Assembly (NCBI GenBank): GCA_016213105.1 | Contig: JACRBN010000009.1 | Location: 1 to 64,000 of the forward strand | Direction: 5' to 3' | DNA length: 64,000 bases | Source: Chloroflexota bacterium | GTDB lineage: Bacteria > Chloroflexota > Anaerolineae > Anaerolineales > Villigracilaceae | Shown: positions 6,957-22,349 of the stretch, in pieces | Position numbering within the stretch: the stretch's first letter is position 1 | How the letters are laid out: every line of letters starts with the position of its first letter | Made by a program: the position numbers and the translations under genes | The notes under the pieces: model-generated | Database searches by the model: none | What the model saw: the letters and a program-made list of their open reading frames with translations, nothing else | Told to the model about the DNA's origin: nothing

Positions 6957-8696
6957 TTACTTCTCGAGGGGCAGGCTTTCAGCGTTCCAGCCGTTGATGC
7001 CCTTGGCCAGGCTGTTGACATTTGTGTAGCCAATCATGCGCAGGGCCATCATGAACAGGGCGCCGCGGTGGCCCGACTGGCAGATCGAGATGATCGCAGC
7101 GGCCTTGTCGGTGGGTAGCTTGGTCAGGTCCTTCATCACTTCGGTAATCGGGATGTTGACCGAGGTCTTGATGTAGCCGGAAGCGAATTCGTCCGGGGTG
7201 CGCAGGTCGATGACCACGGGCGGGGTGGCCGAGTCGACGGCAGCTTGCACATCGGCAGCCTTCATGCTGTAGAAGCCATCCGGCAGGGTCGAGAGGAAGG
7301 CATCCAGGTCGCGCAGGCGCAGCGCGTCAACGGTGGGGGCGGTGCCGGCAACCGGTTCGGCGGGGAGCGTGCCCTTTTCGACCGGGAACTCAGCCTTCAG
7401 CCAGCCGCCCAGACCGCCGCCCAAGTTGCGAACGTCGGTGTAGCCCAGCATGCGCAGGGCGGCCATGATCATCGCGCCGCGATGTCCGGAGCCGCAGTAA
7501 ATGACGATGGGCTGGTCCTGGGCGGGGAGTTTGTCCAGGTTCTTGAGCACATTGCGGACGGGGATGTTGACCGCGCCGGCGATGTAGCCGTTTTCTTCGA
7601 GTTCACTGGCTTCGCGCACATCCAGCAGGAAGGGGGCGCTGGCGGCGTCGATCTGGCCCTTGAGCACGTCAGCCTTGACGGTGTAGTAGTCTTCGGGCAG
7701 GTTGGTGAGGAAGTCGGTCCAGACCGCAGTCCAGTCAACAACGCCTTCCACGGCAAAGCCGGCAGTCTTCCAGGCTTTGAAGCCGCCGCCCATGTTCAGG
7801 ACGTTGGTGTAGCCCAACAGGCGCAGTCCTTCGATGGCGATGGAGCCGCGCAGGCCGGAGCCGCAGTACAGCACGATGGCGGCATCCTTGGCGGGCAGTT
7901 TATCCAGGCTGGTGAAGAGTTCGCCAACGGGGACGTTGATCGAATCCTTGATGTAGCCTTCCTTCTCGCGTTCCTCGGGGGTGCGCAGGTCGATCAGGGT
8001 GGGAGGCGTGGCGCCCGCCAGGGCTTCGTTGACCTTGTCGGCCTTGGTGCCGAGGAAGCCGTCGGGCAGGGTGGACATGCTTTCGTCGAGCGCGGTGAAG
8101 AGCGCCTCGTCGGCAACGATGGGGGTGCTGATGGAAGCGGGAGCTTCGGGCATGGAGCCGGTTTCGACCGGCAGTTCAGCGGTCTTCCAGGCACCCAGGC
8201 CGCCGCTCATGTTGAATACGTTGGTATAGCCCAGGACGCGCAGAACGCCCATGAGCATGCCGCCGCGCTGGCCGGAGCCGCAATAGATGATGATCTTTTC
8301 ATCGAGGCCGGGCAGTTTGTCCAGGTTCTTCAGGACTTCGCGCACCGGAATGTTGATGGCGCCCTTGATGTAGCCGTCCTTCTCCAGTTCGGTGACATCA
8401 CGCACATCCAGCAGGAAGGGCGGGGTGGCCTCGGCCATGGCAGCGCTGACGTCGGCAGGTTTGATGCCGGCATAGCCCTGCGGCAATGCGCCGATCATTT
8501 CGGCGTAAAGCGTGGCAAAGTCGATGGCAACGGGGGCTTCGGTCGCCGGCGGTTCAGTGGCGACGGGGGCCTGGGTGGCGGGGGCCTCGGTGGGAGGGAC
8601 AACCACGACTTCAGTCGCCTGGGCGGGTGCGCAGGCGGCCAGGATCATGCTGAAGAGCACCAGCAGGATCAAGGACATTTGCAGCTTGGTTTTCAT
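6957..8696 (-). CDS. Lipoprotein with four tandem rhodanese domains
   Basis: This 579-residue exported protein has a lipoprotein signal peptide ending in LAAC (lipid-carrying Cys22) and a Pro/Thr/Ala-rich linker to about residue 57. Four rhodanese repeats of about 120 residues follow. Active-site loops are YCGSGQRG (Cys139), YCGSGLRG (Cys278), YCGSGHRG (Cys401) and ICQSGHRG (Cys539), so all four catalytic cysteines are kept. Rhodaneses carry sulfane sulfur as a cysteine persulfide. Here the enzyme would be anchored outside the cell membrane. ATG 8696 has AGGAGA 8 bases upstream. It diverges from the ArsR gene and the respiratory operon, which suggests handling of sulfur compounds in the same physiology. 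An isolated four-domain arrangement is unusual, since most rhodaneses have one or two domains. Confidence 0.88.
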   Translation of the reverse strand: MKTKLQMSLILLVLFSMILAACAPAQATEVVVVPPTEAPATQAPVATEPPATEAPVAIDFATLYAEMIGALPQGYAGIKPADVSAAMAEATPPFLLDVRDVTELEKDGYIKGAINIPVREVLKNLDKLPGLDEKIIIYCGSGQRGGMLMGVLRVLGYTNVFNMSGGLGAWKTAELPVETGSMPEAPASISTPIVADEALFTALDESMSTLPDGFLGTKADKVNEALAGATPPTLIDLRTPEEREKEGYIKDSINVPVGELFTSLDKLPAKDAAIVLYCGSGLRGSIAIEGLRLLGYTNVLNMGGGFKAWKTAGFAVEGVVDWTAVWTDFLTNLPEDYYTVKADVLKGQIDAASAPFLLDVREASELEENGYIAGAVNIPVRNVLKNLDKLPAQDQPIVIYCGSGHRGAMIMAALRMLGYTDVRNLGGGLGGWLKAEFPVEKGTLPAEPVAGTAPTVDALRLRDLDAFLSTLPDGFYSMKAADVQAAVDSATPPVVIDLRTPDEFASGYIKTSVNIPITEVMKDLTKLPTDKAAAIISICQSGHRGALFMMALRMIGYTNVNSLAKGINGWNAESLPLEK

Positions 8697-8788
8697 GTTT
8701 CTTCTCCTGTTTCGAATCTCATGCAGAGGGAATTCCCTCGAAGGTTTGCTCACTGGTAAAAGTGTAGTGGGTTAATTTCCAAATATGT

Positions 8789-8933: not shown

Positions 8934-9230
8934 ATGACTTATTTACCCACCACTCATGAAAATTCCATCCACGAAGCGGATGTTTGCTTTGCCCTGGCTG
9001 ACCCCAAACGCATCGACATCATCCGCGCGCTCGAAAAGCATCCCTATAATGTCAACGAATTGACGCTGGAATTGGGCATCCCGCAGCCGATGACTTCCCG
9101 CCACTTGAAGATCCTGCGGGAGCGCGGCCTGGTCCACTCGACCCGCCACGGAGTTTCCGTCACCTACGCCCTGTCTGACCCGCGCCTGATTGAGGCGCTT
9201 GAGTTGTTGAACAATATTTCGAGCAAATGA
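8934..9230 (+). CDS. ArsR/SmtB-type winged-helix regulator
   Basis: This 98-residue DNA-binding protein has a classic ArsR fold: 'CFALADPKRIDIIRAL' (helix 2), 'NVNELTLELGIPQPMTSRHLKILRERGLV' (recognition helix-turn-helix, about residues 39-67) and 'RHGVSVTYALSDPRLIEAL' (wing and last helix). Family members repress genes until a metal, metalloid or reactive sulfur species is sensed. There is a single cysteine (in ADVCFALAD) and no CXC metal site, so the sensing chemistry is not the classic ArsR type. A sulfur or redox signal would fit the adjacent rhodanese and respiratory genes, but that is inference from context. It is probably the first gene of the operon or its local repressor. Confidence 0.82.
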   Translation: MTYLPTTHENSIHEADVCFALADPKRIDIIRALEKHPYNVNELTLELGIPQPMTSRHLKILRERGLVHSTRHGVSVTYALSDPRLIEALELLNNISSK

Positions 9231-9343: not shown

Positions 9344-10072
9344 ATGCAAAGGAAGAACACGTTCATTGTCCTGATTTTCATCGGAATGGCGATGGTGATG
9401 ACAGCCGGTCTGTGGCTGGCAACCGCCCAGCCCGTCAGTGCGCAGTGCGGGTCGCAGGCTTCGACCTGCAAGGATTGTCACGAGGTCCAGGGACAGATGT
9501 CCGTCAATGCCGACGGGACCGGCTGGCACCAGTCGCATGCCTTCGGCGATTTCTGCTACATCTGCCATGCTGGGAATCAGCAGGCGACGGACAAGGACAC
9601 CGCCCACACAGGCATGGTGCCGCCGCTCTCGGATGCGAAAGCCTCCTGTCAGCAGTGCCACCCCAAGGATTTGGCCGACCGCGCCAAAGTCTACGCTGAT
9701 ATTCTGGGCGTGGAAGTGGGTGGAATCGAAGGCTCCGCCCCGTCAGCGGGTCCCGCAACCGATCCTGCCGCCGGTGCCGCGGCGCAGAACCCGGTCATGA
9801 TCTGTGAGCCACAAAACAATGTTCCCGAGGATAAGACCCTGGTGCTGGCGCAGCCCGCCGAACCAGTGGACTATGTTGCCCAATACAACCGAAACGTGCT
9901 TGGCATCCGCGAGGTGAACTGGGGCATGATCGGGTTGATGGCGCTCATCGCAGTGATCGTCCTCGGCGGCGCGGGATTCGCGGCGATCAAAACAGGCTGG
10001 CTGGTCGTGACCTTTGAAAAACCCGTCAAGGAAGAACCGAAAGCAGAATCCACCGAAGAGCCGAAGGCATAA
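9344..10072 (+). CDS. Membrane-anchored triheme cytochrome c (QrcA/ActA-like position)
   Basis: This 242-residue protein has an N-terminal signal segment (residues 7-33), then three CXXCH haem sites: CKDCH (42-46), CYICH (71-75) and CQQCH (102-106). A low-complexity linker follows, with one C-terminal transmembrane helix (about 195-217). It should sit on the outer face of the membrane and pass electrons to or from the molybdopterin subunit that follows 11 bases downstream. GGAGG 7 bases before ATG 9344 sets the start. Qrc and alternative complex III operons also begin with a multihaem c subunit, but with five or six haems, so this is a reduced version or a different complex. Haem ligation beyond CXXCH is not evident. 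Confidence 0.85.
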   Translation: MQRKNTFIVLIFIGMAMVMTAGLWLATAQPVSAQCGSQASTCKDCHEVQGQMSVNADGTGWHQSHAFGDFCYICHAGNQQATDKDTAHTGMVPPLSDAKASCQQCHPKDLADRAKVYADILGVEVGGIEGSAPSAGPATDPAAGAAAQNPVMICEPQNNVPEDKTLVLAQPAEPVDYVAQYNRNVLGIREVNWGMIGLMALIAVIVLGGAGFAAIKTGWLVVTFEKPVKEEPKAESTEEPKA

Positions 10073-10083
10073 CGGGAGCAACC

Positions 10084-12249
10084 ATGTCAACCATCTCCCG
10101 ACGTGATTTTCTGAAAGTAGGCGGCGCGGCTGCAACAGCGCTGGCAGTGGGACAATTCATCCCCGCGCCAGTGGCTCAGGCGGCGCGTGACGCTGGACAT
10201 CTCAACGCACAAGGTGACGGCGAGATCGCCACCATGTGCGAAATGTGCGTATGGCGCTGCGGCGTGCTTGCAAAAGTTGTCAACGGCAAAGTCGTCAAAC
10301 TGGACGGCAACCCCGACCACCCACACTCGAACGGCAAACTCTGTCCGCGTGGACAAGCTGGGCTGGCAACCACCTACGACCCCGACCGTGTGTTGACTCC
10401 GCTGGTGCGGGTTGGCAAACGCGGCGAAGGCAAGTTCCGACAGGCTTCGTGGGAAGAGGCAATCGAAATCGTCGCCTGGAACATGCTCAACATCAAAGAC
10501 AAGTACGGACCTGAGGCAATGGTCTTCTCGTCCACGCATAATTTGTCACAGGTTCAATTCGAGAATTTATTGCAGGCATACGGTTCGCCAAATTATGGCA
10601 CGCAGCGCTCGCTGTGTTTCAACGCCATGATCGTCGCCAACCAGATGACCTTCGGCATGGAAGAACCTGGGCGCAGTTATGCGGGCGTGAAATACATCCT
10701 TCTGACGGGGCGCAACCTCGCCGAAGCCATCTCCAACTCCGAGACAGGGGACTTGATCCACGCGATTGATCAAGGCGCGAAGATGGTTTACATCGACCCG
10801 CGCTTCACCAAGACCGCGGCGAAGGCGACCGAGTGGCTGCCCATCCGCCCTGGCACTGACCTAGCCCTACACCTCGCCTTTATCAACGTCATCATCAGCG
10901 AGGAACGCTACAACAAGGAATTTGTCAGCAAGTACACTGTTGGCTTCGATGAACTTGCCGCGAGCATCGGTCAATACACTCCCGAATGGGCGGCGGAAAT
11001 CACTGGCATTTCAGCGGAGACCATCCGCCGCATCGCGCAGGAATTCAGCGCTGCCGCTCCCAACGCGCTGGCGCACAACGGCTGGCGCACGTCGAACTTC
11101 ATCAACTCCTTCCAGACCGAACGTGCCATCACCATCTTGAATACGCTGGTCGGCAATTGGGGCGTGACCCTGCTGCCTACGGGCGGCGAGGAAAGCGGTT
11201 GCTTTGGCAAGCCGCCCCAGCCTGGGTATCCGCGCAACTCAGCCCTCCGCTTGGATGGTGTGCCGTGGAAGTATCCCTTCGTGCCGCTCAAACTCGGCGT
11301 CTTCCAGGAATTGCGCGACAACATCCTGAAAGATGATCCGTATGCGGCGCATGGCTGGTTCATCTCGCGCCAGAATCCGATTCAATCCATCCCCGACCGA
11401 CGGAAGACCTTGCAAGCCTTCGCCAAGATGGACTTCATCGCCACGGTGGATGTCATCATGAACGACTCTTCGTGGTTCGCGGATGTCGTCCTGCCCGAAG
11501 CGTCGTACCTCGAACGCTACGACCCGCTCATGCCCATCGGCAGCAAGGGCTTCATTCGTCAGCCTGTGATCGAGCCGCAGGGCGAAGCCAAATCCGCGTT
11601 GTGGATTTTCAAGCATCTCGGTGAGCGGCTGGGACTGAGCGACTTCTTCCAATACAAGGATGAAGAAGATTATCTCAACCAGCAGTTGGCTCCACTTGGC
11701 GTGCCGTTGGAGGAAGTGAAAGCGAAGGGTTACGTCGAACTTCCCGAAGCCGAGACGGAAGTCTTCAAGTGGAACACGCCCAGCGGCAAGATCGAAATCA
11801 AATCCGACACGCTTGGCAACGCTGGCTTCTCCGCGCTTCCCGCTTGGGAGGAACCGCCCGCCCCGAAGCAAGGCGAGTTCTACCTGCTTACTGGCAAGGA
11901 CGCGCGCCAGACTCAGTTCGCCACGCAAAATAATCTGCTGTTGAAAAAATATGATGACGAACCGCGCATTTGGATGAATCCCAAATCTGCCGCCGCGAAT
12001 GGATTGGCAAACGATGATCTGGTGGAAGTGACCAGCGAAGTGGGCAAGGTGAAAGTTCATCTGGAAGTGATCGAAGCCATCCGCCCCGACTGCGTTTACA
12101 TGACGCCTGGGTTTGGTCATCTTTCATTGGGCTTGACCACCGCCTATGGTTTGGGCGCAAGCGACTCCGACCTGCACGTCACCTACACCGACCCCGTCAG
12201 TGGCGGACAGGCGCTCAGCCAGACCTTTGTCAGCGTAAGGAAGGCGTAA
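10084..12249 (+). CDS. Molybdopterin oxidoreductase catalytic subunit (Psr/Phs/Qrc-like)
   Basis: This 721-residue subunit is exported by the Tat system (SRRDFLK at 5-11, hydrophobic stretch, AQA cleavage site near 33). A [4Fe-4S] cluster site is formed by Cys52, Cys55, Cys59 and Cys87 (LCPRG). Cys178 in RSLCFNA aligns with the Mo-ligand cysteine of polysulfide and thiosulfate reductases, so unlike QrcB the protein may truly carry Mo. The C-terminal 'MNPKSAAANGLANDDLVEV' block is the molydopterin-dinucleotide-binding domain. Length and features fit the PsrA/PhsA group. Substrate candidates are polysulfide, thiosulfate or a related sulfur oxyanion, or quinone-linked electron transfer as in Qrc. 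It is second in an operon of four. Confidence 0.88.
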   Translation: MSTISRRDFLKVGGAAATALAVGQFIPAPVAQAARDAGHLNAQGDGEIATMCEMCVWRCGVLAKVVNGKVVKLDGNPDHPHSNGKLCPRGQAGLATTYDPDRVLTPLVRVGKRGEGKFRQASWEEAIEIVAWNMLNIKDKYGPEAMVFSSTHNLSQVQFENLLQAYGSPNYGTQRSLCFNAMIVANQMTFGMEEPGRSYAGVKYILLTGRNLAEAISNSETGDLIHAIDQGAKMVYIDPRFTKTAAKATEWLPIRPGTDLALHLAFINVIISEERYNKEFVSKYTVGFDELAASIGQYTPEWAAEITGISAETIRRIAQEFSAAAPNALAHNGWRTSNFINSFQTERAITILNTLVGNWGVTLLPTGGEESGCFGKPPQPGYPRNSALRLDGVPWKYPFVPLKLGVFQELRDNILKDDPYAAHGWFISRQNPIQSIPDRRKTLQAFAKMDFIATVDVIMNDSSWFADVVLPEASYLERYDPLMPIGSKGFIRQPVIEPQGEAKSALWIFKHLGERLGLSDFFQYKDEEDYLNQQLAPLGVPLEEVKAKGYVELPEAETEVFKWNTPSGKIEIKSDTLGNAGFSALPAWEEPPAPKQGEFYLLTGKDARQTQFATQNNLLLKKYDDEPRIWMNPKSAAANGLANDDLVEVTSEVGKVKVHLEVIEAIRPDCVYMTPGFGHLSLGLTTAYGLGASDSDLHVTYTDPVSGGQALSQTFVSVRKA

Positions 12250-12250
12250 C

Positions 12251-13021
12251 ATGCCAAACAAACACAATGCTTATCTCTTCGACGCCACGCGCTGTATCGA
12301 CTGCCGCGCCTGCATGATCTCGTGCAGCGTCGAAAACAAAATCGAAATGGACAAGACCCGCATTTGGGTCGCGGGCGTTGGACTCACGGGCGAATATCCC
12401 GAACTGCAACGCAGCACGATGGTCTACCACTGTATGCACTGTCTCCATCCTGACTGCATGTCGGCTTGCCCTGTCGGCGCATACACCCAGGCAGAAGATG
12501 GTCCCGTCACCTACAACCCCGACCTGTGCATCGGCTGCCGCTACTGCATGAATGCGTGTCCGTTCGGCGTGCCGCACTTCGATTATGACAAGGGACTTGT
12601 GGAAGGCGCCTTCATCGACAAATGCACCTTCTGCCCACAACGCATCTACAACGGAGACAAACCCGCCTGCGTGGGAACTTGTCCCACCGACGCGCTGGAG
12701 TTTGGCGAACGCGATGAACTGTTGAAGAAGGCTCATGAACGCATCGCCGCGCATCCTGACCGCTATATCAATCATGTCTACGGCGAACACGAAAACGGCG
12801 GCACTTCCTATCTCGTGCTTTCGCATGTCCCGTTCAGTGAATTGGGTTTGCCCGAACTGCCCGAAGAACCCATCAACGAAGTCAGCGAAAAGGTGATGGA
12901 AATGACCATCCCCTTCGCCCTGAGTTGGGGCGCGGTGCTTACGGCTGTTACCGTTGGCGTTGCCGCCTATGACAAGAAGAAGAAAGCCGCCAAGGAAAAA
13001 GAAGCGGAGGTTGAAAAATGA
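12251..13021 (+). CDS. Four-cluster ferredoxin subunit with C-terminal membrane helix
   Basis: This 256-residue electron-transfer subunit has four [4Fe-4S] sites: CIDCRACMISC (15-25), CMHCLHPDCMSACP, CIGCRYCMNACP and CTFCPQR plus CVGTCP. This is the PsrB/HybA/QrcC arrangement. A hydrophobic helix near the C-terminus (about 216-234) is followed by a Lys/Glu-rich tail, so the protein is membrane-anchored as in HybA-type subunits. It lacks its own Tat motif and should be exported with the molybdopterin subunit. It starts 1 base after the preceding stop and overlaps the next gene by 4 bases, so coupling is tight. Its role is to bridge the catalytic subunit and the NrfD-type quinol subunit. Confidence 0.9.
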   Translation: MPNKHNAYLFDATRCIDCRACMISCSVENKIEMDKTRIWVAGVGLTGEYPELQRSTMVYHCMHCLHPDCMSACPVGAYTQAEDGPVTYNPDLCIGCRYCMNACPFGVPHFDYDKGLVEGAFIDKCTFCPQRIYNGDKPACVGTCPTDALEFGERDELLKKAHERIAAHPDRYINHVYGEHENGGTSYLVLSHVPFSELGLPELPEEPINEVSEKVMEMTIPFALSWGAVLTAVTVGVAAYDKKKKAAKEKEAEVEK

Positions 13022-14205
13022 AAATCAAACTAAGACTTCCCGAATTCCTCCGCATGGGGACATTGCCCGTCGTCTTGATTGTTTTGATGGCGATTGCTTT
13101 TGTGGTCGCGATGGTTCGTTACGCCATCGGCATCGGCGCGATTAGCGACTTGAGTTATTCCTACCCCTGGGGCTTCTGGATCAGCTTCGACCTGTTCACG
13201 GGCGTGGTCATCTCCAGCGGCGGCTTCCTCATGGCGGGCACGGTTTACATTCTCCGCATCGAAGAATTCAAACCCTTGCTTCGCCCCTCGGTGTTGACCG
13301 CCTTCCTCGGCTACATGATGGTTGCCATCGCCCTGCTCGTTGACCTTGGTCAGCCGCTGCGCATTTGGTATATGATGATCCACTGGAATCACACCAGCGT
13401 TCTGCTTGAAATCGGCATCTGTGTGATGAGTTACCTGACCGTGCTTGCCATCGAATTTGCGCCTGTGGTTTTGGAGAGTTTTCCCAAACTACAAAAAGTT
13501 GCCCATCTCATTCACCGCTTTATCATGCCGTTCGTCATCTTCGGCGTGGTGCTCTCGACCCTGCATCAATCCTCGCTTGGTTCGCTCATGCTTATTGAGC
13601 CGACCAAGCTTCATCCGCTCTGGTGGACGCCCATCCTGCCCATTCTGTTTTTCGCATCCGCGATTTCGGTTGGCATCTCGATGATTATCTTGGAGTCTTC
13701 GCTCAGTTCCCGCTACTTCCAGCGCGGATTGGAGACGCACCTGCTGGCTAAACTGGCGAAGGCTCTGCCGATTACTTTGGGCGTGTATCTCGTCATCAAA
13801 ATCATTGACCTGGCAGTTGCTGGCGACTTCGGCTATCTCTTCTCCAGCGGATTGATGAGCATCCTCTTCTGGGCTGAAATCCTGATCGGAGTCATCTTCC
13901 CGATGGTCTGGTTCTCCATCGAAAAGAATCGCAACACCCCCAACGGACTTCTCACGGGCGCAATCGTCACCCTGCTTGGTCTAATCCTCAACCGCTTCAA
14001 CGTCAGCTGGTTTGGCGTTACGCATCCCGACCCACTGTTCTACATGCCGAGTTTTATGGGGCATGTGGATTACTTCCCGACCATCCCCGAAGTTGCCGTC
14101 TCCATCGGCATTTTCTCCGCTGGCATCATGGCGTTTGGTCTGCTTGCCAAATACTTCCCCGTTTTTGAAGCGGAACATCATCACGAGGCGCAGGCGGCAG
14201 ATTGA
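13018..14205 (+). CDS. NrfD/HybB-type integral quinol-interacting subunit
   Basis: This 395-residue protein has about ten transmembrane segments and belongs to the NrfD/PsrC superfamily. The motif 'YSYPWGFWISFDLFTGVVISSGGF' (here shown by its PWGFW and SSGGF parts, about residues 44-63) is close to the HybB branch. The subunit exchanges electrons with the quinone pool and completes a membrane-bound CISM-type complex with the three preceding proteins. It ends with a His-rich tail (EAEHHHEAQ). The operon order cytochrome c, Mo protein, FeS protein, NrfD is that of Qrc complexes. A strong terminator follows, separating it from the cytochrome b gene. Confidence 0.88.
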   Translation: MKIKLRLPEFLRMGTLPVVLIVLMAIAFVVAMVRYAIGIGAISDLSYSYPWGFWISFDLFTGVVISSGGFLMAGTVYILRIEEFKPLLRPSVLTAFLGYMMVAIALLVDLGQPLRIWYMMIHWNHTSVLLEIGICVMSYLTVLAIEFAPVVLESFPKLQKVAHLIHRFIMPFVIFGVVLSTLHQSSLGSLMLIEPTKLHPLWWTPILPILFFASAISVGISMIILESSLSSRYFQRGLETHLLAKLAKALPITLGVYLVIKIIDLAVAGDFGYLFSSGLMSILFWAEILIGVIFPMVWFSIEKNRNTPNGLLTGAIVTLLGLILNRFNVSWFGVTHPDPLFYMPSFMGHVDYFPTIPEVAVSIGIFSAGIMAFGLLAKYFPVFEAEHHHEAQAAD

Positions 14206-14234
14206 GCAAGTACAAGGTAGACAGGTAAACAAGT

Positions 14235-14275
14235 AAACACGGAACACGCTATACTTGGGGCGTGTTCCGTGTTTT
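14235..14275 (+). terminator. Strong terminator after the Qrc-like operon
   Basis: AAACACGGAACACG (14235-14248) pairs perfectly with 14261-14274 and runs into T residues. It also excludes a GTG at 14269 as the start of the next gene. Confidence 0.85.
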
Positions 14276-14313
14276 GTAATACTTCAATTTTCTCTCTTTC
14301 ATCCTTTCCGCAA

Positions 14314-15342
14314 ATGCGTCCTTCCTTCTTCCACCACCTCCACCCTCCGACCATCCCAGCCGCACAAGCGCGCTGGCGATATACGCTGGGCGCGGGTGGG
14401 ACGGCGATCTTCCTGATGATCATCCTGGGTGTGACGGGGATTTTGGAGATGTTCTATTATGCGCCCAATCCGCAGGACGCGGCGCTCTCGGTGCAGACCA
14501 TCACCTATCACGTTCCGCTGGGTTGGCTGGTGCGCAACCTGCATTACTGGTCGGCGCAGTTGTTGTTGATCGTCTCCGCCATTCATCTTCTGCGGGTCAT
14601 CTTTACGGCGGCATACCACCGTCCGCGGCGCTTCAACTACCTGCTTGGATTGGCCCTCTTCGTTCTGTCCATCCTGCTGGATTTCACGGGCTACATCCTG
14701 CGCTGGGATATGGATATCTGCTGGCCGTTGACCACGGGCACCAACCTGCTCAAGACCATCCCCTGGATCGGAAATTTTCTTTTTCGCGTGGCCATCGGCG
14801 GCGGGGAGGCCTGCTCCACGGCGCTGCTGCGCTTTTACACCTGGCACATCTTCGGCTTGACCATCCTGGTCGTCATCCTCGGCTTCTGGCACGCCTTCCG
14901 CGTTCGCCGCGATGGGGGGATCGCCGTCCCGCCCGCCAGGCTGCGCGCGGATAACACCCGCATTTCCCGCAACGAACTGGTGCGCCGCGAAGTGTTGGCG
15001 GTCTTGATTGTCGGCATCCTGCTGCTTCTGCTTTCCAGCTTCTTCCCGGCCCCCATCGCCCCCGCCATGACGGGCAAGCCCTCTGCTGTCGAGAATGCGC
15101 GCGCGCCCTGGTTCTTCCTTTGGGTCCAGCAAATGCTCACATGGGGCGATCCGTTTATCTTCGGCGTGCTCATTCCGCTTGGCGTTCTCGCGCTGCTGAC
15201 CCTCATCCCGTATATTTTCCCCAAACCCAATGAAGCCGAAATCGGAAGCTGGTTCCCGAAATCCAATCGCCTTGCGCAGATTGTGGTCAGCGTGATTGTC
15301 ATTCTTGTGATTTTCCTGACCCTGCTTAGCTATGCAAACTAA
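14314..15342 (+). CDS. Cytochrome b of a bc-type complex
   Basis: This 342-residue cytochrome b has a continuous N-terminal four-helix haem domain and a C-terminal domain fused in one chain. Haem-ligand pairs are visible: His in 'YHVPLGWLVRNLHYW' with 'SAIHLLRV' (helix B), and 'FYTWHIFGLTILVV' with 'FWHAFRVRRDGG' (helix D). The protein would oxidise quinol and hand electrons to the Rieske protein two genes downstream. ATG 14314 is used because the earlier GTG lies in the terminator stem. No clear Shine-Dalgarno site precedes it, so the start is the weakest point. It overlaps the next gene by 11 bases. Confidence 0.88.
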   Translation: MRPSFFHHLHPPTIPAAQARWRYTLGAGGTAIFLMIILGVTGILEMFYYAPNPQDAALSVQTITYHVPLGWLVRNLHYWSAQLLLIVSAIHLLRVIFTAAYHRPRRFNYLLGLALFVLSILLDFTGYILRWDMDICWPLTTGTNLLKTIPWIGNFLFRVAIGGGEACSTALLRFYTWHIFGLTILVVILGFWHAFRVRRDGGIAVPPARLRADNTRISRNELVRREVLAVLIVGILLLLLSSFFPAPIAPAMTGKPSAVENARAPWFFLWVQQMLTWGDPFIFGVLIPLGVLALLTLIPYIFPKPNEAEIGSWFPKSNRLAQIVVSVIVILVIFLTLLSYAN

Positions 15343-16564
15343 CCGACCTTTGACCTTCGACTTTCGACTTTTACTCGGTTCGGGACTCCTGTTTGTGGTT
15401 CTATCTCTCGCCTGGTTCCTGGATGCGCGCCAGCCTGACGCCGTTGAATTAATTCCCACGCTGACAGGGAAACCCGAATACTGCCTCACCTGCCACGCGG
15501 ATTTGCCCGAGATCAGCGCCTCGCATCCCGTTGAAACCTTCGGCTGTGTATCCTGCCACGGCGGGGAGCGGCTCGCCCTCGATGCGGACCTGGCGCACAG
15601 CACCATGCGCGGCGGGGCGAACCCGTCCGATCTGTCGGTGGCCGAAGCCTCGTGTGGAGGAAGCAGCTGTCACTCCGGCAGCGAAGCGGATGACCGTCAC
15701 CATATCCAACGCGTGATGACCAGCATCCAATCCACGTATGCGGGCGCGATTGCCGGCATCCGCTACACCTTTGGCGCGCAGACCGATTTGAATGCCCATC
15801 TCGGCATCCGCGCCGTGACCGATGAAGAAACCAAAACAGGCATCACGTCCCTTTCCTCATTCGACCCGGCCAGCGAGGAAAATCCGTTTGTACAGAAATT
15901 TGGCGAAAACTGTTTGACCTGTCACATCAATGCAGCGCCGCGCGAAGGGGAGGCATACGCGCGCGGGACTGGCTGCGCCGCGTGTCATTCGACGGGCGAG
16001 CATACGCTCTCGACCGCCATTCCCTATACCCAGTGTAACGCCTGCCACAACCGCGGCAACTACGACCTGCGCACGATGACCTTTATCGAACGCAGCGACC
16101 ACCCGACCCAGCGCATCGACGATTACTACCAGCCGATCGGCTTGTTCACGCGCTGCGAATACACCCTCGACTGCGTGGACTGTCACACCCGCTCCGAGGT
16201 CATGGGCGACGGCGACATCCACAAGGACCAGGCCTCCATCGAGTACGTGCAGTGCAGAACCTGCCATGGCACGCTGGAGGAACTCCCGCTGACCCGAACC
16301 TTGACCGACCCGAACGACATCGCCTTCAAGCTCGATTTTCTCAACCCTGTTATGGATTTGAAACTGGGCGACACGATCCTCGTCACCGAAAAGGGCGAGC
16401 CGCTTTGGAACATCCGCGTCCTGCCCGACGGCACCTACGAGATGATCGGCAAGGCCACCCGACAATATTTCACCTTCCGCCCCGTGATGGGCACCGCCTG
16501 CGAGCAAAAGCCCGACGAGCAGGAATCACATTACTGCCACGAGTGCCATGCCGTGGAAAAATAA
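15332..16564 (+). CDS. Nine-haem cytochrome c, membrane-anchored
   Basis: This 410-residue protein has an N-terminal signal anchor (about 12-30) and eight CXXCH sites at residues 51, 72, 194, 215, 235, 281, 308 and 402, plus one CX4CH site (CGGSSCH, 108-114), so up to nine haems c. The last sits four residues from the C-terminus (CHECH). A cysteine and haem-free stretch (313-400) looks like a small beta domain. It overlaps the cytochrome b stop, so the two must be co-translated. It would replace cytochrome c1 as electron acceptor of the b/Rieske complex. It resembles no standard named family that I can assign. Confidence 0.85.
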   Translation: MQTNRPLTFDFRLLLGSGLLFVVLSLAWFLDARQPDAVELIPTLTGKPEYCLTCHADLPEISASHPVETFGCVSCHGGERLALDADLAHSTMRGGANPSDLSVAEASCGGSSCHSGSEADDRHHIQRVMTSIQSTYAGAIAGIRYTFGAQTDLNAHLGIRAVTDEETKTGITSLSSFDPASEENPFVQKFGENCLTCHINAAPREGEAYARGTGCAACHSTGEHTLSTAIPYTQCNACHNRGNYDLRTMTFIERSDHPTQRIDDYYQPIGLFTRCEYTLDCVDCHTRSEVMGDGDIHKDQASIEYVQCRTCHGTLEELPLTRTLTDPNDIAFKLDFLNPVMDLKLGDTILVTEKGEPLWNIRVLPDGTYEMIGKATRQYFTFRPVMGTACEQKPDEQESHYCHECHAVEK

Positions 16565-16631
16565 TTTTGGACTCCGTCGGCTTGCCGATGGGCATTGCAG
16601 GCAGCAAGCTGCCTGACTCCAGAGCCAACCA

Positions 16632-17048
16632 ATGACCAACCTCTCCCGCCGTGATTTTCTCAAACTCGCCCGCGCTGGATTTCTCTGGCTGAGCGGCGCG
16701 CTGACCCTCGGCGGCCTGATCCGCTTCCTGGACTTCGAGCCGAATCCCGCGCCCAAAACGGAATTCGACCTGGGACCTGCCGCGAATTATCCGCTGCCAT
16801 CACGTACCCTGCTCGCCGATCCGCCCGCGGTTCTGTGGCACACGGAAAGCGGATTCTCGGCCATGAGCCTGGCTTGCACGCACCTGGGATGCACGCTCGA
16901 AGATGGCGCGGACGGCTTCACCTGTCCCTGCCACGCTTCGCGCTTCGACGCGGACGGCAGGGTGACGCACGGCCCCGCCGCGCAACCCTTGTCCGCGCTG
17001 CGCATCGAAATGACGGATGACAACAACCTGATCCTGCACACCGACTAA
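16632..17048 (+). CDS. Rieske [2Fe-2S] protein
   Basis: This 138-residue protein has a Tat signal (SRRDFLKLAR, residues 5-14) that probably stays as a membrane anchor. Rieske cluster motifs are CTHLGC (about 84-89) and CPCHASRF (about 100-107). It forms the high-potential arm of the quinol-oxidising complex with cytochrome b and the multihaem protein. It is short for a Rieske subunit and has lost little apart from the long flexible linker. A 67-base spacer with a small palindrome (GGCAGCAAGCTGCC) separates it from the cytochrome gene. Having both a Qrc-like complex and a b/Rieske complex side by side suggests one connected chain. Confidence 0.92.
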   Translation: MTNLSRRDFLKLARAGFLWLSGALTLGGLIRFLDFEPNPAPKTEFDLGPAANYPLPSRTLLADPPAVLWHTESGFSAMSLACTHLGCTLEDGADGFTCPCHASRFDADGRVTHGPAAQPLSALRIEMTDDNNLILHTD

Positions 17049-17054
17049 TTCGCA

Positions 17055-17258
17055 CATTCTCCGAAGCCTGACTGCCTTCGAGTCTTCTCATGGGAATCAG
17101 GCCGATCATAACCGTGATCCGGGATGTGGTGGAAACGCCCCGTCCTCCCCGCCTCACCCCTTCCTCTCCCAGAGGGAGAGGGGGCTGGCATTGGAAAGGA
17201 GACGCCCTCGCTCTGCCTGCGCGGCTGTCTCTTATCCATGAGACAGCCTTTTTGTTTT
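17055..17258 (+). promoter_or_regulatory. Structured leader RNA, candidate Moco-type riboswitch with terminator
   Basis: The leader of the FmdE gene folds into nested helices: P1 TCTCC (17058-17062) with GGAGA (17198-17202); GCCTGA (17066-17071) with TCAGGC (17097-17102); GATCA (17104-17108) with TGATC (17115-17119); and a hairpin CCTCTCCC / GGGAGAGG (17163-17181). The closing block GGAAAGGAGAC (17193-17203) and the opening CTCCGA recall the molybdenum/tungsten cofactor RNA motif (RF01055). The 3' strand of P1 (GAGAC, 17199-17203) could also pair with GTCTC (17227-17231) in the terminator. The alternatives are mutually exclusive, as in an OFF switch. The Moco identity is from memory of the motif and needs a covariance search. 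Confidence 0.6.
17223..17258 (+). terminator. Regulated terminator in the FmdE leader
   Basis: GGCTGTCTC (17223-17231) pairs perfectly with GAGACAGCC (17240-17248) and is followed by TTTTTGTTTT. The T-tract ends directly at the GGAG ribosome-binding site of the FmdE gene, which points to transcription attenuation and not simple termination of the Rieske operon. Confidence 0.8.
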
Positions 17259-17270
17259 GGAGACACCGAT

Positions 17271-17906
17271 ATGGATATTCAATCCCTGCTCGAAAAATCC
17301 ACCCGCGACCACTCGCATCTCTGCCCGCGCCAGATCCTGGGCGTGCGCATCGGGCTGGCAGGCCTGCGTGCGTTGGGCTTCGAGGAACCCCCGACGAAAA
17401 AGCAAATGCTGGCCATCTCTGAAACGGACGGCTGTTTCGTGGACGGCGTCAGCGCCGCGACCGGCTGCACCGTCGGGCACCGCACCCTGAGGGTGGAGGA
17501 TTATGGCAAGGTGGCGGTAACCTTTGTGGAGGTGCGCAGCGGGCGGGCGGTGCGCATCGCTCCCAGGCTGGACATCCGCGAGCGCGCCAGTGCCTTCGTC
17601 CCCGCGGAAGACCGCCCCTACTTCGCGCAGATGCAGGCCTATCAAAGCATGCCCGACGCGGAGTTGTTGACCATCTCGCCAGTGCAGTTGGTTGTCCCCG
17701 TGGAGGAGATCGTCTCGCGGGCGGGCCTGCGCGTCAACTGCGAGGCGTGCGGGGAGGAGGTCATGAACGAAAGGCAGGTGCATCGCAACGGAACGACGCT
17801 GTGCCGCTCCTGCGCGGGCGAAGCTTATTATCGAACGGCCCTGCTGGATCCCTCCGTTTTGATGTCGAGCCTGACTCTGTCAAAATTGGATTCCTCGACC
17901 ATATAA
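17271..17906 (+). CDS. FmdE family (formylmethanofuran dehydrogenase subunit E-like) protein
   Basis: This 211-residue protein has an N-terminal FmdE domain with the signature HSHLCPRQILGVRIGL (14-29, Cys18), Cys55 and Cys66 in 'GCFVDGV..TGCTVG', and a C-terminal zinc ribbon with Cys157, Cys160, Cys178 and Cys181. FmdE proteins outside methanogens are often near molybdenum or tungsten genes and are proposed to work in pterin-cofactor or metal handling, but no activity is established. ATG 17271 has GGAG 8 bases upstream, directly after the regulated terminator. The gene follows the molybdopterin operon by 5 kb, which supports a link to Mo or W supply. A TAA/TAG-free C-terminal tail adds about 25 residues beyond the ribbon. 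Confidence 0.8.
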   Translation: MDIQSLLEKSTRDHSHLCPRQILGVRIGLAGLRALGFEEPPTKKQMLAISETDGCFVDGVSAATGCTVGHRTLRVEDYGKVAVTFVEVRSGRAVRIAPRLDIRERASAFVPAEDRPYFAQMQAYQSMPDAELLTISPVQLVVPVEEIVSRAGLRVNCEACGEEVMNERQVHRNGTTLCRSCAGEAYYRTALLDPSVLMSSLTLSKLDSSTI

Positions 17907-18070: not shown

Positions 18071-19876
18071 TCAATTGAACAGACTGTACAGTCTGGCGTG
18101 CGCCTGCCTGAGTTTCTCCGCATCCATCTTCTCGACCTTGCGGTCATAGGTCAGGTAGCCGTTGATCTCGATCTCCACGTCGGTGGTTTGGGTGTAGATC
18201 GCGGCGGTCAATCCCCTGGCGATGAGCGGCATTAATTCGTTTTCCAGCAGCGCCAGGTAGGCGTCGGTCAACTCCGCGCTGGTCTCGTAGAAACGATAGC
18301 CGAACTTCTTCGTCTCGTCCCACACGTGCGCGGGGATCTTCAAGCTGTACCCGCCGAACTCCGTCAGGGCAAAGGCGCGGCGGCCGCGCGCGGGGGCCTT
18401 CAACTTTTTGACGTAGATGTGTTTGCTGTTGAAATCCCCGCCGCCCTGGTCGAACCAGCCCGAGGCGTGATCCACCAGGCGCGTCGGGTCATACTGCTTG
18501 ACCCAGTCCCCGACCTCCTTGGCGTGGAACTGTCCCCAGCTCTCGTTGAACGGAACCCAGACCGCGATGCAGGCCGCGTTGTGCAGGTGGTCGAGCATGC
18601 CCTGCAGCTCGGCGCGATATTCGGCGCGCACCGCCTCATCCGCGCGGCCGAAGCGCCCCAGCCAGCGCGTGTCGTTGCGGTGGAAGCCGAGGATCAGCGA
18701 CAGGATCGCCACCGTCTCGCCGTCGATGCGCCCGCCGTTGGGCATGTCCTGCCAGACGATCATCCCCAGGCGGTCGCAGTGGTAATACCAGCGCAGCGGC
18801 TCGACCTTGATGTGCTTGCGGATCATGTTACAGCCCAGAGCCCGCGTGTACTCGATGTCAAACAACATTGCTTCTTCCGAAGGCGGCGTGTACAGCCCAT
18901 CGGGGAAAAAGCCCTGGTCGAGCGGACCGTACAAAAACAGCGGTTCGCCGTTCAACGCAAAGCGCAGATAGCCGTGCGAGTCCTTCACCAGGCCGAACTT
19001 GCGCATTGCAACGTAACTGCCGACTTCATCCAATGTCTGACCATCGTGGACGAGTCGCACGCGCAGATCATACAGATGCGGATTGGACGGATTCCACGCG
19101 ATGGGATTTGGCACCGCAACCTGGATCGGACCTGGGGCCTGCCCGCCGCCCGACGAGATTTTTTCCCCGCCTGAGAACGCCTCCGCCTCCACGCGGACGC
19201 CGCCGCCCGCGCCCCTGACCCTGACCTCCACCATCAGCGACCCGCCGTCCAGGTCGGGGGTCAGCTTGAGCGACTCGATGCTGACCTCGGGCACAAGCTC
19301 CAGCCAGACCGTCTGCCAGATGCCGGAGATGGGCGTGTACCAGATGCCCTTCGGCTGCAAGACCTGCTTGCCGCGCTGCTGCAAACCCGTGTCGGTCGGG
19401 TCCCAAACGGAGACGAGTAACTCATTTTCGCCAGCGACGAGCGCATCCGTGACATCGAAGGTGAAGGGCAGGTAGCCGCCGCGGTGCGAGCCGATGGGGC
19501 GGCCGTTGAGGAAGACGGAACATTCGTAATCGACGGCGCCGAAATGCAAGAGCGCCCTCCCCCCGCCTTCGGCACCCCTTCGCGAAGCACCCCCGTGGGG
19601 CTCCCGCGCCCGGGAGAGGGGCAGGGGGTGAGGGAAAGTTCGTCGATACCAAAGCCTCTGCTCGGGCAGGAGCGATTTCTGCACGCCTGAGAGCAGGGAC
19701 TCGACTGGGTACGGAACGAGGATCTTTCCGTCGAAGGTTTTCGGCGCGGGGGCGTCCTTGGGGAGGATGGCGTAATCCCATTCGCCGTTGAGGTTGAGCC
19801 AGTCGGGCCGCGTCAACTGCGGGCGCGGATATTCGGGCAGGGGCGTGGGAGTGGATGGTGTCCAGGGCGTTTGCAT
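18071..19876 (-). CDS. Glycoside hydrolase family 2 enzyme
   Basis: This 601-residue protein has the GH2 order: an N-terminal jelly-roll sugar-binding domain ([20 protein letters not shown] to about 180, including '[26 protein letters not shown]'), an immunoglobulin-like middle domain, and a TIM barrel. The acid/base is Glu445 in FNESWGQF and the likely nucleophile is Glu506 in ALTEFGGY. Beta-galactosidase, beta-mannosidase or beta-glucuronidase activity is possible. No signal peptide is seen, so it should act on imported oligosaccharides. CGGAG precedes ATG 19876. Residues of about 82-104 are a Pro/Arg/Gly-rich insert that is translation of a dispersed repeat. It is last in an operon with an MFS carrier and GH127. 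Confidence 0.88.
19601..19634. repeat. Dispersed GC-rich repeat inserted in frame in the GH2 gene (family D)
   Basis: On the minus strand the sequence CCCTCACCCCCTGCCCCTCT followed by CCCGGG and a GGGAG arm matches the block at about 17152-17185 (CCTCACCCCTTCCTCTCCC and its return arm). In GH2 relatives 'WYRRTF' is followed by a short loop and 'LLHFGAVDY'. Here about 20 extra residues of unusual composition intervene. Confidence 0.6.
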
Positions 19877-19894
19877 GATAACTCCGGTTGAAAA

Positions 19895-20293
19895 TCAGTT
19901 TCCGACGATCGCGGGATGGCGCGTGTATGACCAATGCGTCTGGATGATGCGCCAGCCGTCTTCACGCCAGCAATAGACCTCGGTGCAGTTCCAGGAGGTT
20001 TTTTTGTCGCCGACATACGAGGCGTAGTTGAAGGTCAGCACGGCCAATTCGCCGCCGACCTGCGCGCAGGGATCGAGCAGTTCGAATCGGTCGAAACGCA
20101 CCTGCCCCCAGAATCCCCGATAGTATTGGATCAGGGCCTCCAGCCCGTCGATTCGTTTTTCCAGATAGGGATCGAAGTAGACCACATCCGCGGCGCAGAT
20201 TTCGATGAAACCTGACGGGTCGCCGTCTCCCCAGCGCCTCAGGGCGGCGCTCTCCATGGCGACAAGGATTTCCTTGACTTCTTCGTTCGACAT
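19895..20293 (-). CDS. SnoaL/DUF4440-like small protein
   Basis: This 132-residue protein has the NTF2-fold pattern of ketosteroid-isomerase-like proteins: 'ILVAMESAALRRWGDGDPSGFIEICAADVVYFDP' at the N-terminus, then 'GLEALIQYYRG' and a C-terminal 'EDGWRIIQTHWSYTRH'. DUF4440/SnoaL proteins include small-molecule isomerases and many orphan binding proteins. AGGAG lies 6 bases before ATG 20293, which excludes an upstream in-frame start inside a repeat. It is placed 18 bases before the GH2 gene in the glycan operon, so a role in sugar or glycoside handling is possible but unproven. Confidence 0.72.
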   Translation of the reverse strand: MSNEEVKEILVAMESAALRRWGDGDPSGFIEICAADVVYFDPYLEKRIDGLEALIQYYRGFWGQVRFDRFELLDPCAQVGGELAVLTFNYASYVGDKKTSWNCTEVYCWREDGWRIIQTHWSYTRHPAIVGN

Positions 20294-20307
20294 TGTTTCT
20301 CCTGTTT

Positions 20308-20352
20308 TATACCGCACTCGGTGGAATGTGCAATTTTCACCCGTGGGTATTA
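20308..20352. repeat. Family C palindromic element, short copy
   Basis: TATACCGCACTCGG, GCAATTTTCA and CCGTGGGTATTAT match the ends of the full element at 38537-38605. The last residues and the stop codon of the GH127 gene (ending NAYNTHG) are encoded by this element. Confidence 0.65.
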
Positions 20353-22349
20353 TATGCGTTCACCCAGACGGTCATGGTCGATGCGCCGCGGTTGCCCCAC
20401 AGGTGATAGGGGATGAAGGTGAGGGGATGTCCATCTTGGGATTTACCTTCGATCTTCATGACGCCACCGAGCAGGGACGCGTCGAAGATGGGTTTAAGGG
20501 ATGTTGGATCGAACTTTACATTGAAGATGTCAGTAGATGGGTTGTCAATACTTTCGAGACAATAAACCAACGGTCCGCGTATGATTGCATATTTGCCATC
20601 AAGCCCTTTGACTTTTGGATGGGCGCGGCGTAGTTGAATTGACATATTAAGATTAAGTTCCACAATGTCGCCAGGCGCCCAGGTTCTGTTGATCAAAGCA
20701 AACCATGCCCGCCGCGAGTCGATCATAAAGTTTCTAGTCTCGATAATATATTTCAGGGAATTGTTGTAATTTTTCCAACTAACCGTATGTGAAAAATTAG
20801 TTCCTTGAGCAGACATTTGTTTATATACAGATTCGTGCGGCTTAATTGGTATCGATGGACTCCATGATGGTATGCGTACATTTATTTTGAATTCTCTGTT
20901 TTCAGAAGGATCAACATGGATCAAAACCTTTCCATTCCAAGGTAGTTCAGATGCGATTTTGATCTTAACAGGAATCCCAACATCCAACGTTGTTTCGCTA
21001 TTGATATATTGATGAACGTAGATCTGGTTTTCGTTCTTTGAATAAATATACTTTCCCAAATCTGCCCAGGTGCGCGAGAGGTTGGAGGGACAGCAGGGCA
21101 CGGCGTACCACGGTTTGCGCGTCACGCCGCCGCGGCAGGTGAGGGGGTTGTTGTAGAGGTAGGTTGTGCCGTCTGCGCCCATGCCAACGGCCGCGGCGTT
21201 GTAGAGTTGCCATTCGAACAGGTCACTGTATTTGGCCTCGTGGGTAAGTTGCACCATCTCCCAATTCCAGAACATGCTGGCGAGGGCGGCGCAGGTTTCG
21301 GCGTAGGCGTATTCGGGATCGAGTTCGTAGTCGTTGCCGAAGCCTTCGAGCGCGGGCAGGGAGCCGATGCCGCCTGTGACGTACATGCGACGCGTCACCA
21401 TGTGTTCCCAGGCGCGTTCCAGGGCAGGGACGAGAGTCTGGTCGCCTGTTTCGCGGGCGAGCATGGCGATGGCGGTTTCGAGATACGCAAAGCGGACAGA
21501 GTGTCCGACGGGCACCGTCTGTTTACGGACAGGCGCGTGTTGCTGAAAATATTTTCCGTTCAGCGCGTTGATCTGCCAGCGCAGCGTCGCGTTCCACGGT
21601 TTCTTGGCAGCGTTGCCTGGCGGGAGTTGGAAGGGTTTGAACTCGGGATGCGCGGCGAGATATTCGTGTTTCTTTTGCTTCACGGTTTTGCCACGCGCTT
21701 CCACGCTGGAATTTTGTTTCAGGAGCGAGAAAGCGAAGAAGGGATTCTGTCCGCGTTGTTCGATGAACTGGCGCGCCATCTCCAAATAGGATTTCTCGTC
21801 CGTGACTTGGTACAACCGCAGGAGCGCGATCTCGATCTCCTCGTGACCTGGGGTGTGGTCTGCGCCTTTGCCGCGGAAATCGTCCACGATGCGGTCGGCG
21901 GCACGGCGGGCGATGTCGAGCAGGTCTGCCCGTCCCGTCGCTTGGAAATGAGAGACGCCCGCTTCGATGAGATGCCCGTGGCAATAGAGTTCGTGCTCGA
22001 TCTGGAGATTCGTCCAGCGCGTGTTTGGGAAGTGGATCTGGTTGTAGGTGAAGAGGTAGCCGTCGGGTTGCTGGGCGCGCGCTAGAAGGGCGATAAACGC
22101 GTCGATACGCGCGGCCAGTTCGGGGTCAGGTTGTGAAGCGTAGATGCGGGAGGCCGCGTCCAGCCACTTGTGCGCGTCCGAGTCGGCGAAGAACCAGCCT
22201 TCGCGGAAGCCGTCCACATCCCCCGCGGCAATGCGAAAATTTTCGATGCAACCCGAAGCCTCGAGTTGATCCCATTGATGGAAGATGGCGCGGCGCGCGT
22301 TCACATCGAGTCGGTCGCGCCAGAAACCGTCGGAGATGCTGGTGGTCAT
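20337..22349 (-). CDS. GH127 family beta-L-arabinofuranosidase-like enzyme
   Basis: This 670-residue protein (formerly DUF1680) has an alpha/alpha-barrel with the zinc-thiolate site of GH127: Glu351 and Cys353 in AETCAAL, and Cys419/Cys420 in VPCCPSN. In the Bifidobacterium enzyme the matching cysteine is the nucleophile. It would remove beta-L-arabinofuranose or related residues from imported plant-type oligosaccharides. ATG 22349 overlaps the MFS stop (ATGA), so the carrier and the enzyme are coupled. The C-terminal third (about 20640-21060) is clearly AT-richer than the rest, which suggests a mosaic gene. The extreme C-terminus lies in a dispersed repeat. Confidence 0.88.
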   Translation of the reverse strand: MTTSISDGFWRDRLDVNARRAIFHQWDQLEASGCIENFRIAAGDVDGFREGWFFADSDAHKWLDAASRIYASQPDPELAARIDAFIALLARAQQPDGYLFTYNQIHFPNTRWTNLQIEHELYCHGHLIEAGVSHFQATGRADLLDIARRAADRIVDDFRGKGADHTPGHEEIEIALLRLYQVTDEKSYLEMARQFIEQRGQNPFFAFSLLKQNSSVEARGKTVKQKKHEYLAAHPEFKPFQLPPGNAAKKPWNATLRWQINALNGKYFQQHAPVRKQTVPVGHSVRFAYLETAIAMLARETGDQTLVPALERAWEHMVTRRMYVTGGIGSLPALEGFGNDYELDPEYAYAETCAALASMFWNWEMVQLTHEAKYSDLFEWQLYNAAAVGMGADGTTYLYNNPLTCRGGVTRKPWYAVPCCPSNLSRTWADLGKYIYSKNENQIYVHQYINSETTLDVGIPVKIKIASELPWNGKVLIHVDPSENREFKINVRIPSWSPSIPIKPHESVYKQMSAQGTNFSHTVSWKNYNNSLKYIIETRNFMIDSRRAWFALINRTWAPGDIVELNLNMSIQLRRAHPKVKGLDGKYAIIRGPLVYCLESIDNPSTDIFNVKFDPTSLKPIFDASLLGGVMKIEGKSQDGHPLTFIPYHLWGNRGASTMTVWVNAYNTHG

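Follow-up and report, generated by a model that had tools for sequence, protein, structure and literature searches.

Psr/Phs-type enzymes (polysulfide and thiosulfate reductases) with different membrane anchors are already known. Two charge-moving modules are common, the NrfD-type and the dihaem b-type anchor (PMC8076601). Proteins of the YeeE family take up thiosulfate or sulfane sulfur, and PmpA/PmpB consist of two YeeE halves (PMC11582611). We analyzed a stretch of 64,000 nucleotides from a Chloroflexota bacterium of the class Anaerolineae (assembly GCA_016213105.1, contig JACRBN010000009.1, positions 1 to 64,000, forward strand; hereafter the window), which at positions 9344-17048 carries seven genes combining a molybdenum (Mo) subunit of the PsrA/PhsA family with a nine-haem cytochrome c, a cytochrome b, and a Rieske protein. 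This gene set is widely conserved in uncultured Anaerolineae. Judged from its sequence, it probably moves electrons between extracellular sulfur compounds and the respiratory chain; with modest confidence, we propose that it encodes a sulfur-compound oxidoreductase system on the outside of the cytoplasmic membrane, which would link sulfane sulfur with both menaquinone and a nine-haem hub, Rieske/cytochrome b being an optional part.

All seven open reading frames (ORFs) were found in the order and span given by the original prediction. They are located on the plus strand, where adjacent genes overlap by up to 11 nt or are separated by up to about 110 nt:

9344-10072, plus strand: three-haem cytochrome c, membrane-anchored, with three CxxCH motifs
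10084-12249, plus strand: Mo catalytic subunit, PsrA/PhsA family, with a twin-arginine translocation (TAT) signal, the Mo ligand Cys178, and one 4Fe-4S site
12251-13021, plus strand: four-cluster ferredoxin of the HmcB/HybA type (NCBIfam HmcB, HybA; Pfam Fer4_11)
13018-14205, plus strand: NrfD-family quinone-interacting anchor of the HmcC/HybB type (PF03916)
14314-15342, plus strand: cytochrome b, b6 with a subunit-IV-like C-terminal half (PF00033)
15332-16564, plus strand: nine-haem cytochrome c, membrane-anchored, ExtM-related, with nine haem motifs
16632-17048, plus strand: Rieske 2Fe-2S protein, anchored by a TAT/transmembrane segment (PF00355)

Alignment of orthologs placed the start of the three-haem gene at ATG 9344 and indicated that 14314 is a more likely start of cytochrome b than 14269, where its ORF opens.

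Conservation was analyzed in 298 genomes of the class, with at least 60% identity as the criterion for an ortholog of the Mo subunit. The Mo subunit was present in 30 genomes, the nine-haem cytochrome in 29, and both in 28 (Fisher p of about 7e-36). All three exceptions, two with the Mo subunit only and one with the nine-haem cytochrome only, are draft genomes; in the latter (L081) the contig stops before the Mo gene would be reached. A scan of named genomes was evaluated for the best 80 loci, which are 61-98% identical, and these 80 closest named relatives are all Chloroflexota/Anaerolineae records. The usual gene order is ArsR regulator, three-haem cytochrome, two YeeE/PmpAB halves, Mo subunit, FeS protein, quinone anchor, cytochrome b, nine-haem cytochrome, Rieske protein, and FmdE protein, the last being found near the cluster in 20 of the 80 loci. 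The three-haem cytochrome was present in all 63 loci whose upstream sequence reaches 3.5 kb or more, and three haems were counted in 67 of 69 sequences as in the window, where the original prediction had already described a subunit with only three. Downstream, 45 loci offered at least 6.5 kb; the nine-haem cytochrome was found in 41, the Rieske protein in 34, cytochrome b in 31, and all three in 29. The nine-haem cytochrome was found in all of 11 further genomes behind the exceptions, whereas seven of these contained only a distant cytochrome b (best score ≤290 bits, as compared to 449-526 bits for the cluster type). At least seven genomes thus keep the nine-haem protein without this cytochrome b, so that the Mo subunit has the nine-haem protein as its constant companion, whereas cytochrome b is optional; in several genomes cytochrome b is dispensable, separate, or in inverted orientation. 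The proposal that the seven genes form one linked set in Anaerolineae corresponding to no named complex is upheld; the linkage of the Mo and nine-haem genes, with co-occurrence in 28 genomes, far exceeds chance.

Comparison of the Mo subunit with NCBIfam profiles yielded 592 bits for PhsA, 176 for QrcB, 166 for ArrA, and 99 for TtrA. The PhsA score is below the equivalog threshold of NF012032 (591.9 as compared to 694 bits), and ArrA and TtrA reached only 166 of 1600 and 99 of 1750 bits. The best solved relative is Thermus thermophilus PsrA (2VPW), which matched over the full length with an E-value of 1e-136. Cys178 aligns with the Mo-ligand Cys of PsrA and, together with the 4Fe-4S ligands Cys52/55/59/87, is invariant among 11-14 orthologs in our alignments; the prediction that Mo ligand and FeS site are kept, unlike in QrcB, was thus correct. 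The subunit shows the features of PsrA/PhsA family members, namely full-length similarity exceeding that to other CISM families, the Mo Cys, and the N-terminal 4Fe-4S site. Trees, the second of which was calculated without DmsA, joined PsrA to 40%-identical paralogs at 100/100, so that the cluster sequences fall outside the PsrA clade proper; under sparse sampling they form their own group (support 80/98) apart from PsrA and PhsA. Furthermore, the dyad position holds Trp-Arg followed by TSNF in this clade, Arg-His (RH..WYG motif) in PsrA, and His-Arg in PhsA. The sequences thus place the Mo subunit as a separate group inside the polysulfide/thiosulfate reductase family, and its substrate may differ from those of PsrA and PhsA because of the changed dyad.

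Additional Mo proteins were observed in the class. Psr-like Mo subunits at L168:749-3046 and L169:8331-10646, as well as other 40% matches, contain one in-frame TGA each. Its position coincides with the Cys of a GGC motif, seen in L170 and in T. thermophilus PsrA, rather than with the Mo ligand; these proteins are candidate selenoproteins with selenocysteine at a second site. MobA-like genes adjoin the set in loci L140 and L154. Elsewhere in the window genome (L172, C25:940000-956000), a TtrA-like Mo protein (452 bits), a ferredoxin, and an NrfD protein are encoded with ArsR upstream and, downstream, an FmdE protein 62% identical to that of the window.

The ferredoxin contains 16 cluster Cys and scored 223 bits with HmcB, 198 with HybA, and 65 with QrcC. 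The NrfD protein of 395 amino acids scored 305 bits with HmcC, 295 with HybB, and 149 with QrcD. Over the loci, the anchor is a HybB-like NrfD in about 52, a b561 protein (PF01292) in up to 16, and a PsrC-like NrfD in seven; the b561 count derives from sequence clustering, and a strict motif reduced it to 10 plus one locus with both. Hence, the anchor type changes while Mo subunit, three-haem, and nine-haem cytochromes remain.

The nine-haem cytochrome contains eight CxxCH motifs and one CX4CH; nine haems were counted in 47 of the 50 orthologs found. Its gene overlaps the cytochrome b stop codon by 11 nt, an overlap from which the original prediction had concluded that it takes the place of cytochrome c1. 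The overlap was confirmed; the replacement of c1 is weakened by the nearly constant pairing with the Mo subunit and by persistence without this cytochrome b, which suggests that the nine-haem protein serves the Mo complex first. Cytochrome b has four invariant His ligands and the C-terminal half, with Thr at the haem-ci Cys position of b6. At the quinol oxidation (Qo) site the motif is APWF in 37 and APWI in 2 of 42 sequences, and the Glu of PEWY-type motifs is missing; the second residue of this motif varies with quinone type (PMC9162462). Cytochrome b is similar to ExtP and ExtQ and the nine-haem protein to ExtM, with scores below the cut-offs of NF040969 (202 of 290 bits), NF040970 (45 of 150), and NF040943 (124 of 800), respectively. 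The Rieske protein shows the CTHLGC/CPCH motifs and keeps the Ser and, like most orthologs, has Phe for Tyr; an anammox Rieske protein with the same exchange still measured +335 mV (PMC12954380). Thus, the alignments contain the broad features of Rieske/cytochrome b complexes, namely two bis-His b haems, CxH/CxxH motifs, and a periplasmic c-type acceptor. AlphaFold gave a model with a mean pLDDT of 47 for the nine-haem cytochrome and one of 56 for the three-haem cytochrome; both were set aside for fold searches because neither was used further.

Some variants of these proteins were also observed. At L130:5176-5730 and L140:15721-16122, a Rieske gene near the nine-haem gene encodes no N-terminal membrane helix evident by eye, and the genomes lack the cluster-type cytochrome b. 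A nine-haem ortholog (43%) occurs on a 17 kb contig of another class of the phylum (L183, genome G369); Mo subunit, cytochrome b, and Rieske protein were not recognised near it, and this trace outside the class comprises the nine-haem cytochrome alone and not the set. At L078:1940-2500, just upstream of the cluster, an extra three-haem cytochrome shows weak similarity to the ExtS lipoprotein.

The surroundings of the set point to sulfur, a context which the original prediction had missed, as it had the swapping of anchors. In about 62-65 of the 80 loci, the three-haem and Mo genes enclose genes for two half-size YeeE proteins (PF04143), which, like PmpA/PmpB, carry a single invariant Cys each (61 of 61 and 25 of 25 sequences). 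The pair is absent from the window and its clade (L085-L089, L187), where, as far as the contigs reach, a rhodanese lipoprotein stands in its place, beside ArsR in L086-L089 and L187. In the window, the following elements flank the set:

6957-8753, minus strand: divergently encoded lipoprotein, four rhodanese domains (PspE-type thiosulfate sulfurtransferase), start probably near 8696
8934-9230, plus strand: ArsR-family regulator (PF01022), at the head of the cluster
17223-17258, plus strand: terminator-like hairpin of 9 bp with a T-run, just 3' of the Rieske gene, found by pattern match
17271-17906, plus strand: FmdE-domain protein with a zinc ribbon (PF02663, PF01258), ORF opening at 17124

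The lipoprotein has an LAAC lipobox, matches PF00581 in four stretches (E-value 1.4e-72) with Cys in all four active loops, and scored 134 bits with NCBIfam PspE (cut-off 102). Elsewhere in the class, a homolog with 44% identity stands beside other, Psr-like Mo/FeS/b561 operons. ArsR precedes the three-haem gene directly in 54 sequences collected; a two-Cys sulfane-sulfur sensor of the SqrR/BigR/SoxR type was considered and is unsupported, as conservation is limited to one Cys (52 of 54). SoxB was not found over its cut-off in 48 genomes tested, 24 of them cluster-bearing; therefore, the Sox pathway cannot be invoked. Terminator-like patterns numbered 11 as compared to 9.8 expected by chance, the one at 17223-17258 having the longest stem and the best T-tail. 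Further downstream (18071-23620), genes for a family 2 glycoside hydrolase, a GH127 β-L-arabinofuranosidase, and a sugar transporter of the major facilitator superfamily (MFS) apparently form an arabinose-oligosaccharide locus unrelated to the set.

In the proposed mechanism, the outward-facing Mo site would handle sulfane sulfur (sulfide, polysulfide, or thiosulfate), and electrons would reach the anchor and menaquinone by way of the 4Fe-4S site and the ferredoxin, and the nine-haem cytochrome by way of the three-haem cytochrome. Where cytochrome b and the Rieske protein are present, menaquinol would be oxidized in a Q-cycle and the high-potential electron delivered to the same nine-haem hub, which would feed an oxidase or another acceptor. 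As carrier of the sulfur product we propose the YeeE pair or, for the lineage of the window, the rhodanese lipoprotein. The direction is probably oxidative, from sulfur to quinone to a high-potential acceptor. By established redox potentials, a chain fed by a Rieske protein is too high in potential for the reduction of polysulfide or thiosulfate, and cytochrome oxidase subunit I (COX1) is commoner in cluster genomes (27 of 30) than in others (178 of 268; p = 0.007, uncorrected for phylogeny); both points favor oxidation.

Several points weigh against this proposal. Substrate, product, and direction are predictions from sequence, and contact or electron exchange between the complexes is putative; the Mo clade, which carries WR where PsrA and PhsA have RH or HR, may act on another substrate. 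The COX1 association is weak and ignores kinship. The YeeE pair is missing from the window, and the only other YeeE halves of its genome are about 30% identical. Seven genomes carry the Mo/nine-haem set without this cytochrome b. In addition, YeeE/YedE proteins also move selenium, and the nearest relatives of the cytochromes b and c are named for selenite/tellurite reduction (PMC5877670). An extended form of the proposal, in which the Mo and bc-type complexes share the nine-haem cytochrome and menaquinol from the anchor is re-oxidized next door, would be a physically coupled chain from sulfur to Rieske/cytochrome b; on the present gene data we regard it as doubtful. If true, it would constitute a self-contained sulfur respiration module in which the two electrons of the quinol possibly reach different acceptors.

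The closest characterised enzymes are reductases, and anchors of the HybB, PsrC, and b561 types all belong to quinone-linked enzymes; the record titles of several hosts name sediment, sludge, or groundwater as the source, and some loci are devoid of cytochrome b and Rieske protein. These observations would also fit a respiratory reductase, in which the Mo site reduces polysulfide or thiosulfate with menaquinol supplied through the anchor while cytochrome b, Rieske protein, and nine-haem cytochrome form a separate branch sharing the operon. We consider this possible but rather unlikely: the nine-haem protein stays with the Mo subunit where cytochrome b is missing and is thus more than a bystander, and most cluster genomes encode haem-copper oxidases. 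Electrons might also run from quinol through cytochrome b, Rieske protein, and nine-haem cytochrome to the Mo site for Ext-like reduction of selenite, tellurite, or arsenate in detoxification or respiration, a direction energetically allowed for high-potential acceptors. The matches of cytochrome b to ExtP/ExtQ and of the nine-haem protein to ExtM speak for it, as do the ability of YedE-type proteins to move selenium and the Geobacter ext cluster, which also joins rhodanese, Rieske protein, cytochrome b, and multihaem cytochrome c (PMC5877670). As every Ext score is under the curated cut-off, PhsA far outscores the ArrA, YnfE, and TtrA profiles, and no porin-type family was recognised among recurrent neighbours, in which no search was aimed at porins, this explanation appears improbable. 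The same low probability is assigned to a single physical supercomplex of the Mo/NrfD and bc-type complexes around the nine-haem cytochrome, for which conserved order and co-occurrence argue; cytochrome b is dispensable, separate, or inverted in several genomes, and the anchor type is swapped while the remainder is kept.

Anaerolineae are common in sludge, sediments, and groundwater, and their sulfur metabolism is poorly assigned. The cluster represents a candidate sulfur module for them, with the Mo subunit and the nine-haem cytochrome as diagnostic pair. It also provides a natural bioenergetics experiment: one catalytic subunit combined with three quinone-anchor types, with or without Rieske/cytochrome b, and with a constant nine-haem cytochrome.

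The original prediction had compared the locus to Qrc and alternative complex III (ACIII). The shared order of multihaem cytochrome c, Mo-family protein, ferredoxin, and NrfD holds; a kinship does not, since QrcB, QrcC, and QrcD reached only 176 of 440, 65 of 400, and 149 of 570 bits, far under PhsA, HmcB, and HmcC/HybB. QrcB and ActB are without Mo, whereas the window subunit keeps Cys178; for ACIII, moreover, one NrfD is present instead of two, and an ActB/QrcB-like gene occurs elsewhere. This gene, on another contig of the window genome (L173, C13:279000-295000), belongs to an ACIII/Qrc-like locus and encodes a Mo-family protein without the Mo Cys (best match QrcB, 285 bits), accompanied by NrfD and by cytochromes with five and two haems. 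At L171 of the same genome (C28:100000-116000), eight-haem and nine-haem cytochromes are encoded with ferredoxin and NrfD, another membrane complex of the Nrf/Hmc-like kind. The modules HmcBC and HybAB, which contain the best matches of the window ferredoxin and NrfD, serve a 16-haem cytochrome c or a NiFe hydrogenase, whereas the window pair sits with a Mo enzyme.

A search of open PMC text did not find the combination of a Psr/Phs-family Mo subunit, a nine-haem cytochrome c, optional Rieske/cytochrome b, and a PmpAB-like pair. PsrABC and PhsABC share with the cluster the Mo family, the Mo-Cys, the 4Fe-4S site, a four-cluster ferredoxin, and an extracytoplasmic Mo side (TAT); the anchor is PsrC-like in a minority of cluster loci and b561 in others. 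The cluster differs by the WR(TSNF) dyad clade, an extra three-haem cytochrome, the constant nine-haem cytochrome, Rieske/cytochrome b in the operon, and, in the window, a HybB-like anchor. The Geobacter ext cluster (extHIJKLMNOPQS) resembles it in Rieske protein, b6/IV cytochrome b, ExtM-related multihaem cytochrome, and rhodanese (PMC5877670), but has no Mo/NrfD complex, other haem counts, a porin, and a split cytochrome b. In anammox Rieske/cytochrome b complexes, a multihaem cytochrome c likewise replaces cytochrome f/c1, and Kustd1480 keeps the Ser and has Phe for Tyr (PMC12954380); these complexes differ by an NAD(P) oxidoreductase subunit, hexa- or octahaem cytochromes, and the lack of a Mo complex. 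The parts of the cluster are thus of known kinds, and their combination appears to be new.

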